This document shows positions 36,139 to 39,177 of a stretch of DNA of 43,354 nt, in pieces. The stretch is from Nioella sp. MMSF_3534. GTDB taxonomy: Bacteria > Pseudomonadota > Alphaproteobacteria > Rhodobacterales > Rhodobacteraceae. Each line of letters begins with the position of its first letter. The first letter of the stretch is position 1. The position numbers and the translations under genes were made by a program. A model generated the notes under the pieces. The model saw nothing but the letters and a program-made list of their open reading frames with translations, was not told where the DNA came from and did no database searches. The DNA lies in contig NZ_JASHJX010000041.1 of the NCBI RefSeq assembly GCF_030732985.1, forward strand, positions 1-43,354, read 5' to 3'.

Positions 36139-36417
36139 ATGAAACAGCTTCTTCTTTCCCTCGCCCTGATGGGCCTCGCCACTACGGCCAACGCAACTTG
36201 CTTCGCCGATTACAAGGCAAAGATGGATAACCCGCTCCGCCTGCATTACGGTGTGATCGAGTTGCCGGATTCTGCCTGCTCTGTCGGCGCAGCTGCGTCC
36301 AACATCGCAGGTCGCCTGACGGGCGGCTGGCAGCTCCTGGAAGTTATGTCGGTCTTCGACGAGACCGGCCTCGATTCGAGGAGAGACCGTGCAGGACAAT
36401 ACTACCTCCGCTTCTGA
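36139..36417 (+). CDS. Small secreted protein (92 aa) coupled to the membrane winged-helix gene
   Basis: This 92-aa protein has a clear signal peptide (KQLLLSLALMGLATTANA, cleavage before TCFAD) and a mature part of about 72 residues with two Cys (in TCFADYK and DSACSVG). It ends LDSRRDRAGQYYLRF. Its 3' end overlaps the next gene by 29 bases in another frame, so the two are almost certainly translated from one mRNA. It may act as a periplasmic partner of the membrane regulator; that is inference from position only. Confidence 0.72.
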   Translation: MKQLLLSLALMGLATTANATCFADYKAKMDNPLRLHYGVIELPDSACSVGAAASNIAGRLTGGWQLLEVMSVFDETGLDSRRDRAGQYYLRF

Positions 36418-37093
36418 GTCGCGGATCACCGGTACCCGGGTCGTACAGCTCGGGATCGTGGCAGTCGTCGCCATCCTCGCGGTGGCGGCGTTTTTGCTGT
36501 TCTCCTACCTGCCCGATGCAGGTGCGTTCAACGACGCGGTGGAGGAGATCTTCGTCGTCAACGATGCGTTGACCACCACGGAATCCATCAGAATCCTTGA
36601 GATTCTGGCGCAATCCGGCACCACCTTTTCCAAGGTTCTGGCCAGCTACCGGGCGATCATCTTCGTGCTGATCGTCTTCGCCACGGCGCTGCTGATCGCC
36701 TGCCTGGTCTTCCTTGTGACCATCATCACCCTGAACCGCCGGATGCATGAGATTGAACGCTCGGGCATTCAGGTGTCTTCGCTGGTCGTGAGCCGCGAAG
36801 AGGGTGTCGTCTACCTCAACAACATGGAATTCAAGCTGACCGCCGCCGCCATGGAAACCCTGTCGGTCCTGGCCGAGGCGCGGATGGATGACGACGTACT
36901 GTCGGGGGCGGAAATCGAATCAATGGTGTCGGGAAAACCGGCATCGGATTGCGAAGAGGCCGCAGGCGCCACGCGAATCAAACGCCTGCGCGATACGCTT
37001 GGCAATCAGATGGTCAGCGAATTGCTGGTCAAGAACATCGCCCGCCGGGGCTATATGCTGGCGATCGACAAGGACGTGATCAAGATGATCTGA
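36389..37093 (+). CDS. Membrane-anchored winged-helix regulator with N-terminal helices
   Basis: The start is GTG, preceded by GAGGAG. The 234-aa product has two membrane helices (about 18-40, 88-115) around a 47-residue loop predicted to be periplasmic, then a cytoplasmic C-terminal domain (about 138-226). Its LTAAAMETLSVLAEA, TRIKRLRDTLGNQMVSELL and IARRGYMLAI follow the pattern of OmpR-type winged-helix domains. There is no receiver or kinase domain. ToxR/CadC proteins have the same parts in the opposite order (DNA-binding domain first). It is probably a one-component membrane transcription factor, with the upstream secreted protein as candidate partner. Confidence 0.72.
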   Translation: MQDNTTSASESRITGTRVVQLGIVAVVAILAVAAFLLFSYLPDAGAFNDAVEEIFVVNDALTTTESIRILEILAQSGTTFSKVLASYRAIIFVLIVFATALLIACLVFLVTIITLNRRMHEIERSGIQVSSLVVSREEGVVYLNNMEFKLTAAAMETLSVLAEARMDDDVLSGAEIESMVSGKPASDCEEAAGATRIKRLRDTLGNQMVSELLVKNIARRGYMLAIDKDVIKMI

Positions 37094-37105: not shown

Positions 37106-37378
37106 CTAGCAATTGTTGGGCCGCCCGCGACCATAGCCGGACCTGTCCGAGATGCTGCCATTGTCGCTGTCGGTATAGCCGGTGCGGGTGCCGCCCGGCC
37201 CACGCGGGCAGGCGTTGCCATCGTTCCACGATCCGGTATCGCCATCAGCGGCCTGCGCCTGACCCGGTAGAATCGCCACCGTGCCACCGGCAGCAGCCAG
37301 CCCAAGGAACCGCCGCCGTCCGCTGCGGCCCACCTGAATATCGCTATCCGTCAGGGTCTTGTCGGATTTGTCGGTCAT
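37106..37378 (-). CDS. Tat-signal peptide precursor, paralogue 1 (90 aa)
   Basis: The start ATG at 37378 opens a leader with TLTDSDI and a twin-arginine signal SGRRRFLGLAAAGG, with probable cleavage at AQA near residue 43. The predicted mature part of 47 residues has ACPRGPGG, TGYTDSDNGSISDR and GYGRG, and ends in Cys. It aligns along its full length with the next gene upstream. The ribosome site is weak (AAAGGA, 13-14 bases before the ATG). Tat export of so short a peptide suggests that it leaves the cytoplasm folded or modified. No named family is recognised. Confidence 0.75.
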   Translation of the reverse strand: MTDKSDKTLTDSDIQVGRSGRRRFLGLAAAGGTVAILPGQAQAADGDTGSWNDGNACPRGPGGTRTGYTDSDNGSISDRSGYGRGRPNNC

Positions 37379-37436
37379 ATTGGCGGTCCAATCCTTTGGT
37401 CTGATGAATGCACGGGCCCCGAAGGACCCGCTGTGA

Positions 37437-37464
37437 ACTATATCAGATGTTGCGCCGATATCAG
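37437..37464 (-). promoter_or_regulatory. Candidate promoter of peptide gene 1 with CTGATAT direct repeats
   Basis: On the minus strand CTGATAT occurs twice with an 18-base period (37458-37464 and 37440-37446). The second copy runs into TATAGT (37437-37442), a -10-like hexamer. The -35 position is poor. ATATAGTTC here is also present upstream of peptide gene 2. The repeats resemble the inverted motif before the membrane-regulator operon. Confidence 0.5.
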
Positions 37465-37739
37465 CAGTAAGGCGCACCGCGCCCATATCCGCCACGATCC
37501 GTGATGCGGCCATTGTCGCTGTCGGTGTAGCCGGTATAGGCCCCACCACCGCCACGAGGGCAGGACCCGCTGTCGGTCCAGTTTCCGTTGTCCACGTCGC
37601 TGGCCTGTGCAGTTGTCGGGGTCAGCGCCACGACGCCACCCGCTGCCATCAGGCCAAGCACGGCCCGCCGGGCCGGACGCGCGGTTGAAATATCGCTGTC
37701 GGTCAGCGTCTTTTGGCCGGTCTTATCTTTTTTAGACAT
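37461..37739 (-). CDS. Tat-signal peptide precursor, paralogue 2 (92 aa)
   Basis: This paralogue of the downstream gene shares KTLTDSDI in the leader, the signal ARPARRAVLGLMAAGG, probable cleavage at AQA (residue 46), and a mature part of 46 residues containing SCPRGGGG, TGYTDSDNGRITDR and GYGRG, again ending in Cys. The start ATG follows AAGGAAGG. A strong promoter (TTGACG, 17 bases, TATAGT) lies upstream. It is divergent from the JmjC-type oxygenase gene, 168 bases apart. Function unknown; calcium binding through DSDNG, disulfide-closed structure, or oxygenase-modified peptide are possible. Confidence 0.78.
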   Translation of the reverse strand: MSKKDKTGQKTLTDSDISTARPARRAVLGLMAAGGVVALTPTTAQASDVDNGNWTDSGSCPRGGGGAYTGYTDSDNGRITDRGGYGRGAPYC

Positions 37740-37765
37740 GGTGGCCTTCCTTGCTGCCAAATCAT

Positions 37766-37811
37766 GTGTAATACTCACACGAACTATATGGACAACAGGT
37801 AAGCCCGTCAA
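37766..37811 (-). promoter_or_regulatory. Sigma70-type promoter and possible operator of peptide gene 2
   Basis: On the minus strand TTGACG (37806-37811), a 17-base spacer and TATAGT (37783-37788) form a near-consensus promoter. GTGT-N7-ACAC (37766-37780) lies just downstream of the -10, around the expected transcription start, where a repressor could bind. Confidence 0.6.
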
Positions 37812-37907
37812 TGCCCGCCTCCGTCCATCGGCCAATTCACGCCGGTTGCGGCCCCTCCGGCACGATGCAGAGCTGACGCTCCAGTCAGCAGATGGGAGAG
37901 CGGACAG

Positions 37908-39098
37908 ATGTCCATGAGTTTCGACAAGGCCATCGCGCCGGTCACCCCGCAGGAGTTTTTCGAACAGTCGTTTGAAAAGAAGCATCTGGTCATTCGCAGG
38001 GGGCAGGCGGATTACTATTCCAGCCTGCTGACGAGCGCCGATATTGACTGGGCGGTCTCAACGCTCGGCCTGTCCGTGCCCGAAGTGAACGTTGTCCAGG
38101 CGGATCGGGAGATTTCGGCCACCGATTTCGCCTATGACAGCGGCTTCATCGACCCGGTTGCTGTGAACCAGCTCTTCGCCGAGGGCGCGACGATCATCAT
38201 GTCGAACCTTCAGGAACGGCTGCCGAAGCTGGCCATGTTCTGCCGGGAGCTGGAGAAGGTCTTTTCCGCCCGCGTGCAGACAAACATCTACATGACACCG
38301 GCAAACAGTCAGGGCTTCAAAGCCCACTACGATGGCCATGACGTTCTGGTGCTTCAGGTCGAGGGCACCAAGGAATGGCGCATCTACGACACGCCCGTTC
38401 ACCTGCCGCTGGAGGAACAGGCCTTCAACCCCCATGACGTCCCGATCGGCGAGATGACCGACAGTTTCATTCTGGAACCCGGCGACATGGTCTATGTGCC
38501 CCGCGGGCTGACCCATGATGCCGTGTCGACCGACCAGACCAGCCTGCATATCACGACGGGGCTGATGATGCGGTCCTGGGCGGATGTGATGGTCGAGGCG
38601 GTGCGGAAAATGGCCCTGAGTGACGCCGAATTCCGCGAGGGACTGCCGCCGGGCTTTGCCAATGAGGGCTTTGACAGCAGCGGGGCCGAGGCCAAATTCG
38701 CGGCCCTTCTGGGCAAGCTGTCAGGTGCCACGCTGGACTCTGTCCTGAACGAGTTCCGCGAAGATTTCATCGCCACACGCCTCCCCCGCGCGCATGGCCA
38801 ACTTGCCCAGATGGCGCGGCTTGACGGGCTTGGCCCCAATAGCGTGATGGGCGCCCGCCCGACGTTGATCTACCGCCTGACAGATGTGCCCGCAAAGGGC
38901 GACCAGCCCGACAGCGTTGCTCTGTCCTGCCAAGGCACCGTCATCACCCTGCCCGCCTATGCCCGCGAGCCGTTGGAATACGCGATCTCCACCCCAAGTT
39001 TTACGCTGGCTGATCTGCCGGGTGATCTGGATGATGCCGGCAAAACCGTCCTGCTGCGCCGATTGGTGCGCGAAGGGCTGGTTTATTTCATCGAGTGA
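37908..39098 (+). CDS. JmjC/cupin-type Fe(II)-2-oxoglutarate oxygenase
   Basis: This 396-aa protein carries the JmjC core of ribosomal-oxygenase-like enzymes. FKAHYDGHDVLVLQVEGTKEW holds the HxD pair (H140, D142) and a candidate 2-oxoglutarate Lys (K155), while YVPRGLTHDAVST holds the distal H203. A C-terminal winged-helix-like region follows, as in RoxA/YcfD (373 aa in E. coli), which hydroxylates an Arg of ribosomal protein uL16. GGGAGAG lies 7 bases before the ATG. Being divergent from the two peptide genes, it may hydroxylate those peptides; a ribosomal substrate is the main alternative. Confidence 0.85.
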   Translation: MSMSFDKAIAPVTPQEFFEQSFEKKHLVIRRGQADYYSSLLTSADIDWAVSTLGLSVPEVNVVQADREISATDFAYDSGFIDPVAVNQLFAEGATIIMSNLQERLPKLAMFCRELEKVFSARVQTNIYMTPANSQGFKAHYDGHDVLVLQVEGTKEWRIYDTPVHLPLEEQAFNPHDVPIGEMTDSFILEPGDMVYVPRGLTHDAVSTDQTSLHITTGLMMRSWADVMVEAVRKMALSDAEFREGLPPGFANEGFDSSGAEAKFAALLGKLSGATLDSVLNEFREDFIATRLPRAHGQLAQMARLDGLGPNSVMGARPTLIYRLTDVPAKGDQPDSVALSCQGTVITLPAYAREPLEYAISTPSFTLADLPGDLDDAGKTVLLRRLVREGLVYFIE

Positions 39099-39100
39099 TC

Positions 39101-39177
39101 TGGTGACCCCGGCAGGATTCGAACCTGCAACCTGCCCCTTAGGAGGGGGCTGCTCTATCCAGTTGAGCCACGGGGCC
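39101..39177 (-). tRNA. tRNA-Arg (anticodon CCT)
   Basis: The minus strand folds into a full cloverleaf of 77 bases: acceptor GGCCCCG with CGGGGTC, D-arm GCTC/GAGC, anticodon stem GCCCC/GGGGC with loop CTCCTAA, T-arm GCAGG/CCTGC with TTCGAAT, discriminator A and an encoded CCA. It reads AGG codons. No integrase or att-like repeat is next to it. Confidence 0.96.

Follow-up and report, generated by a model that had tools for sequence, protein, structure and literature searches.

Several described systems resemble, in part, the locus reported here. Biphenomycin BipG and PbsQ are likewise JmjC-type 2-oxoglutarate (2OG) enzymes that hydroxylate a ribosomal precursor peptide, and two reports (PMC12707348; PMC12257519) give their target as ornithine formed from arginine, in an FRF core, with a cluster that also includes an MNIO, an arginase, and a B12-radical SAM enzyme. 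In contrast, the system described here has one enzyme, Asp-rich repeats, and mostly Tat signals. The oxygenases NO66, MINA53, and YcfD share its PF08007-type fold and are its best sequence and fold matches, and a winged helix is a further point of resemblance (PMC6006756). However, their substrates are ribosomal proteins, whereas the linkage observed here points to exported repeat peptides.

Bufferin precursors carry signal peptides, and bufferin chemistry is Cys-based. Bufferins are also ribosomal peptides that are modified by an iron oxygenase (an MNIO) and linked to metals, according to PMC12452194, but MNIOs are a different enzyme family and the peptides described here are Asp-rich.

A 2025 paper (PMC12710340), in the passages that concern these proteins, places an RRE-like fold on PF08007 (JmjC) proteins of fish and algae, whose closest bacterial homologues, at about 30% identity, occur in RiPP-like contexts. 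Neither a precursor nor a leader motif is described in those passages, nor are a core and a route of export, and the words “twin-arginine” and “hydroxyl” are absent from the main text. These RRE-fused PF08007 proteins are a partial precedent for a leader-binding JmjC enzyme. Among the top matches listed in literature searches, there was no account of the repeat, the leader, or the Tat–JmjC pairing described below.

A Locus of Two Precursors and a JmjC Oxygenase

The window, meaning the whole stretch of DNA analysed, comprises 43,354 nucleotides from Nioella sp. MMSF_3534, and in it two short precursor genes diverge from a JmjC_2 oxygenase gene (Table 1). An earlier, sequence-only reading had described a pair of paralogous twin-arginine precursors next to an intact JmjC oxygenase, and this description is borne out. 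The precursors are 65% identical over residues 5–90, would leave mature chains of 47 (P0001) and 46 (P0002) residues after cleavage behind AQA as judged by eye, and carry a twin arginine that is invariant in 17 aligned precursors. In comparisons with genomes G186 and G208, dN for both peptides (0.17–0.25) is far below dS (0.66–1.43), and the enzyme gives dN of 0.15–0.24 with dS of about 1.0. These values indicate that both precursors and the enzyme are under purifying selection and are not chance open reading frames (ORFs). A genome search for a third precursor copy in the Nioella genome found none (one extra row, E 0.27). In the region 5′ of the precursors there are two sigma-70-like matches where 0.7 are expected, and by eye all 7 intergenic regions that were aligned keep the −35 portion GTCAA, whereas 4 of the 7 keep the TATA portion.

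Table 1. Coordinates of the features of the precursor–oxygenase locus in the window
Feature	Position	Strand	Remarks
Precursor 1 (P0001)	37106..37378	-	90 aa; layout as precursor 2; alignment of 17 precursors; dN<dS
Precursor 2 (P0002)	37461..37739	-	92 aa; leader, Tat signal, and two repeat units, with Cys at the C terminus; dN<dS
JmjC_2 oxygenase (P0003)	37908..39098	+	396 aa; PF08007 E 5e-30; pLDDT 96.7 (AlphaFold)
Leader motif TLTDSDIST, precursor 2	37683..37709	-	L12 and I17 unchanged across the 17 aligned precursors
Leader motif TLTDSDIQV, precursor 1	37331..37357	-	Alignment of 17 precursors
Twin arginine R24-R25, precursor 2	37665..37670	-	Invariant in aligned precursors
Repeat unit 1, precursor 2, DVDNGNWTDSGSCPRG	37551..37598	-	Invariant D48 D50 G52 D56 R62 G63
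Repeat unit 2, precursor 2, TDSDNGRITDRGGYGRG	37476..37526	-	Invariant D73 D75 G77 D81 G86 R87
Repeat unit 1, precursor 1, DGDTGSWNDGNACPRG	37199..37246	-	Alignment of 17 precursors
Repeat unit 2, precursor 1, TDSDNGSISDRSGYGRG	37124..37174	-	Alignment of 17 precursors
Promoter-like TTGACG-17-TATAGT for precursors	37783..37811	-	Consensus match only
JmjC domain (residues 105-226) with H140, D142, H203	38220..38585	+	Triad invariant in 65 aligned sequences, P0003 included
C-terminal winged helix (residues 313-394), candidate RRE-like leader binder	38844..39089	+	DSSP of model; RLxxEG covariation; proposed role

The enzyme is assigned to JmjC_2 by a Pfam domain above cut-off together with the HxD...H triad. 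Pfam gives its clade only a domain name, and NCBIfam gives none. The best fold matches of its AlphaFold model are NO66 and MINA53 (Foldseek). YcfD is not its closest relation, since the profile E value is 1.7e-57 for NO66 versus 2e-8 for Escherichia coli YcfD, and the Foldseek order agrees.

The flanks of the module also have recurring features. A tRNA-Arg(CCT) gene (39101–39177, minus strand) lies 2 bp past the JmjC stop codon, and of the 14 loci of relatives that were scanned, 7 have the same tRNA 0.1–5.3 kb from JmjC. This proximity perhaps reflects an old insertion site or plain synteny. On the other side, 36389–37093 (plus strand) encodes a membrane protein that weakly matches PF00486, a winged helix of the response-regulator type (E 3e-4, below cut-off). 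Its homologues, at 72–94% identity, occur no more than about 3 kb from the peptides at 20 loci of Rhodobacterales, two of which (L038 and L126) are one contig. The protein could be a regulator of the module, or its position could be plain synteny. In Rhodobacterales the module keeps a fixed gene order with the membrane winged-helix gene and with genes that we take to be ccrM and rnhB.

Pairing of Precursor and Enzyme

The sequence-only reading also proposed scoring how often homologues of the peptides adjoin a JmjC gene, and we ran this check. When P0002 was searched against 295 genomes of the family, 25 were listed. Eight of these, the Nioella genome among them, are true positives, and the other 17 (best E 1.1e-4 to 0.0098) were rejected, with no ORF in their loci showing the repeat unit or two TDxD motifs. 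One genome (G011) was missed by this search, and its precursors were found beside its JmjC gene. With a precursor profile, 385 class genomes and 398 phylum genomes yielded eight and three further positives, respectively; the Nioella genome recurs in both samples and G616 recurs in the phylum sample. All 11 have a JmjC gene adjoining at least one precursor. Across the three samples, and with the Nioella genome included, JmjC is present and adjoins a peptide gene in 19 of 19 peptide-positive genomes, which supports the sequence-only reading. JmjC itself is patchy, occurring in 11 of the 295 family genomes, and the hypergeometric p for the family sample is 1.3e-13 when relatedness is ignored and the Nioella genome is counted.

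Two distant family JmjC genomes, G250 (34% identity) and G286 (28%), have no precursor at their loci, and none was seen at the short loci of the distant paralogues L119–L123. Extra precursors occur on other contigs, some of them short, without a nearby P0003-like gene (for example L032, L036, L039, L091–L093, L104, L105, L107, L219, and L223), and one precursor of G855 (L221) lies about 2.4 Mb away on the contig of its JmjC gene. One enzyme may therefore serve several precursors in trans.

From the enzyme side, we scanned GTDB contigs with the enzyme alignment and took the top 80 among at least 585 relatives, so this survey describes the nearest clade rather than all PF08007 proteins. Because at least five of the loci (L126, L136, L146, L149, and L197) are contigs of genomes in the peptide-side samples (G084, G222, G441, G618, and G297, respectively), the two tests are not fully independent. 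By eye, a precursor is adjacent to JmjC in 74 of these 80 loci, which represent several phyla. By rule, 69 of the 80 have a unit- or leader-bearing ORF within 600 bp of JmjC, two of them (L171 and L191) counted through a spurious ORF although each has another precursor by eye. Automated precursor picks were wrong at L132, L137, L139, L191, and L203 and were replaced by hand. Of 700 ORFs lying no more than 600 bp from JmjC, 46 contain strict repeat units, versus 0 of 3055 beyond 2.5 kb, and the leader rule gives 55 near ORFs versus 11 far ones. We rely on the strict rule because a loose precursor rule fired on 52 of the 3055 far ORFs.

The six loci without a precursor were dropped. Four of them (L145, L158, L176, and L195) have less than 400 bp of sequence upstream, L162 has no precursor upstream and only 28 bp downstream, and L153, with both flanks present, is the single unambiguous negative. 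A tree built from 87 enzymes groups those of the 80 loci with the window enzyme (97/98), with the long-branch paralogue L119 inside, and G250, G286, and two more distant rows fall apart from this group. The linked enzyme is a PF08007 protein, not an MNIO (DUF692), and the 14 largest neighbour clusters listed include no third gene common to the groups, antisense shadows aside. The JmjC of L145, a MAG labelled Anaerolineae, is nearly identical to that of L146, an alphaproteobacterial MAG. The placement of L145 is probably a binning error, and the phylum count should therefore not rest on it.

On the strength of these genome comparisons, the pairing of enzyme and precursor is very probably real. 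The partnership is large, is spread across several bacterial phyla, and apparently carries no name.

Leader Motif and C-Terminal Winged Helix

Ahead of the signal, the precursors have a leader of the form (T/S)-L-x-D-x-(D/E/Q)-I-x-T-x-R, whose L and I never vary across the 17 aligned rows. Under one rule for all, the leader is matched by 51 of the 53 precursors that fall outside one enzyme clade and by 0 of 21 inside it, the leaderless clade being Maricaulales, Caulobacterales, and kin. One of the 51 matches (L139) is spurious, and by eye L139, L150, and L163 do carry the motif. With a looser rule that fixes L and nearly fixes I, run on the same 53 precursors, the columns left free are also conserved: 47 precursors have T or S at −1, 39 have T at +7, and 30 have R at +9. 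An RLxxEG motif in the C-terminal part of the enzyme follows the same division (52 of 53 outside versus 0 of 21 inside). Because leader and RLxxEG were lost together once on the tree, this covariation counts as a single evolutionary event, and both rules were tuned on these very data. A precursor gene that joins a conserved leader to a repeated or variable core, next to the gene of a modifying enzyme, is the arrangement of a RiPP, and the family shows it, except that the 21 precursors of one clade lack the leader motif.

The leader is more than a piece of the Tat n-region, because it persists where no Tat signal follows. The Chloroflexota precursors of L168, L171, and L200 (the first and last from one genome) and L039 7835–8059 have the leader and Asp-rich cores without a Tat signal. 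The L039 ORF, on the minus strand, carries the leader TLKDDDII and three TDxD motifs, has no signal peptide by eye, and is upstream of a Tat lipoprotein-type precursor. The Chloroflexota precursors are perhaps cytosolic or exported otherwise.

In the model of P0003, DSSP assigns strands to residues 313–316, 322–327, 336–341, and 344–349, and helices to 350–361, 367–369 (three residues only), and 376–388. The strand-then-helix order of residues 313–394 is close to the RRE definition given in PMC12710340, as compared by description and with a middle helix of three residues. From this model and the covariation, we see even odds that the winged helix is the leader binder. Against such a role, NO66 and MINA, which are ribosomal-protein modifiers, also carry winged helices.

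Repeat Units and the Target Residue

Each mature peptide consists of two degenerate copies of [T/S]DxDxGxxxDxxGxGRG in the alignment of 17 precursors. Because the invariant residues D48, D50, G52, D56, R62, and G63 match D73, D75, G77, D81, G86, and R87, the short peptides are two-unit versions of this repeat. The earlier account of the peptides was right that the precursors are real but overlooked their tandem-repeat nature, the leader, and the constancy of Asp in divergent cores, and the window peptides are the short form. Longer relatives built from tandem units are also present in some peptide-positive family genomes, and the longest array, in one ORF of L140, has 13 units (regex). Under a rule that fixes D2, G6, D10, and G15 and allows D or N at position 4, 48 of the 74 loci together yield 196 canonical units. 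Position 4 is always D although N was allowed. Frequencies are 91% for T at position 1, 73% for S3, 69% for A9, 62% for P11, and 93% for R16, which the rule left free.

For the window peptides and nine repeat precursors, Pfam contains no family above cut-off, and NCBIfam none except the generic Tat-signal model TIGR01409. PHROGs has no match for the peptides, PADLOC has none for the peptides or the enzyme, and plasmid and phage searches gave one weak match each. An SD-repeat adhesin identity for L199 was rejected, its matches looking compositional.

Cores differ strongly in sequence from one group to another: TDSDxGxxxDPxGxGRG in Alphaproteobacteria and Myxococcota, DPDKK and TDSDQA in Acidobacteriota, GTDGEADADG in Chloroflexota, and SDSSDQSGR in one gamma MAG and one Dehalococcoidia MAG. 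Asp and Gly occur in 74 of 74 cores and Ser and Thr in 72, whereas Arg is absent from 15, Asn from 15, His from 47, Glu from 50, and Lys from 58. The 74 of 74 is partly circular, as richness in Asp was one ground for choosing the cores and each core was taken from its first Asp onward. We therefore redid the count on ORFs picked by leader and twin arginine alone. A DxD motif follows the signal in 50 of 55 such ORFs near JmjC versus 2 of 11 far from it, and among these 50 near ORFs Arg is missing from 13, His from 34, Lys from 38, and Glu from 35, with Asp, Gly, and Ser never missing. Core matches are weak at L151, L164, and L200.

Asp is the likeliest target because it is always present in divergent cores, unlike Arg, His, Lys, and Asn. 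It is also preferred because 2OG oxygenases hydroxylate Asp at the β-carbon, an established chemistry. Gly is universal as well, and Ser and Thr are nearly so, and Asp is thus favoured by chemistry and not by counting alone. Hydroxylation is likely to be the reaction of P0003, and we lean toward Asp as the residue that would receive it. Set against a leader-bound Asp model, NO66 and MINA hydroxylate His and YcfD hydroxylates Arg.

It is conceivable, but improbable, that the pair is enzyme and substrate as proposed while the modified residue is the Arg of GxGRG, or Ser or Thr. The conservation of R16 in a column the rule left free is consistent with an Arg target, as is the existence of JmjC Arg hydroxylases such as YcfD and JMJD5 (PMC6006756; PMC5862942). 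However, cores that lack Arg lie beside enzymes of the same clade, for example at L168, L171, and L193, an argument that leaves Ser and Thr untouched. Because JmjC is patchy, is nearer to NO66 and MINA than to YcfD, and faces cores without Arg, P0003 is probably not the uL16 Arg hydroxylase.

We also think it improbable that the oxygenase performs oxidative crosslinking or macrocyclisation, or oxidises hydroxy-Asp further, instead of carrying out simple hydroxylation. Macrocyclisation of RiPPs by a 2OG-dioxygenase is reportedly the subject of one study. In a graspetide cluster, SmaO/SmaX carry Asp through β-hydroxy-Asp to aminomalonate (PMC13097080). Both sequence profile and fold nevertheless group P0003 with the hydroxylases NO66 and MINA. 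Finally, although the closest solved relatives of P0003 are ribosomal oxygenases, a ribosomal-protein oxygenase with incidental repeat neighbours is very improbable given the linkage to precursors over several phyla, the lack of another shared neighbour among the clusters listed, and the patchy occurrence of JmjC.

Export and Location of the Product

Tat export, as put forward in the sequence-only reading, is usual among the precursors but not universal, the exceptions being the leader-bearing precursors without a Tat signal described above. Most precursors have Tat-type signals, many of which end, as judged by eye, in a lipobox-like Cys. P0001 scores 15.3 bits with TIGR01409 against a cut-off of 16.7, P0002 returns no row, and two of nine relatives are above cut-off. 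The Nioella genome encodes TatC.

The best clue to location is the repeat precursor of L091 (7855–8664, minus strand; genome G441), which is fused to a PG_binding_1 domain (E 1.6e-18). AlphaFold leaves the peptide unfolded (pLDDT 48.6), a low confidence that is uninformative on a metal site, and the mature chain is predicted to be disordered. The sequence features of the precursors suggest an acidic polymer resident in the envelope as the product. That hydroxy-Asp would be used there to bind metal is a doubtful guess.

Proposed Pathway and Implications

We propose, with a probability of roughly 0.7, that the locus encodes a two-gene, leader-guided peptide modification system in which the JmjC_2 enzyme hydroxylates Asp before export, mostly by Tat. 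This proposal builds on the enzyme–precursor pairing, the conservation of leader and units, and the Asp present in every core seen in our comparisons. In the cytoplasm, the oxygenase, using Fe(II), 2-oxoglutarate, and O2, would bind the precursor leader L-x-D-x-D/E/Q-I-x-T, probably by way of the winged helix at its C terminus, and would hydroxylate the aspartates of the repeated (T/S)DxD, most likely at the β-carbon. The modified and probably disordered chain would then be exported, usually via Tat, and one signal cleavage would take off leader and signal together. An acidic peptide or lipoprotein bearing hydroxy-Asp would remain in the envelope and might serve there to bind metal ions.

For a broader formulation, we judge the chances to be evenly balanced. 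It would define a multi-phylum, leader-guided class in which a JmjC enzyme with a built-in leader-binding domain β-hydroxylates the Asp residues of tandem DxD units in precursors that are often anchored to lipid or peptidoglycan and exported by Tat, with some precursors served in trans and a metal-binding hydroxy-Asp polymer of the envelope as the product. The locus would extend the leader-guided ribosomal peptides with a JmjC–Asp-repeat type.

A testable candidate substrate is now at hand for a widespread bacterial JmjC clade, and the leader motif and DxD units can be used as search terms in genome mining. The pairing suggests that a winged helix of the NO66/MINA type can serve as a leader-binding module. 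It also points to a coupling between the hydroxylation of aspartates in proteins and export by Tat, and such a coupling would plausibly explain why short, unstructured chains take the Tat pathway.
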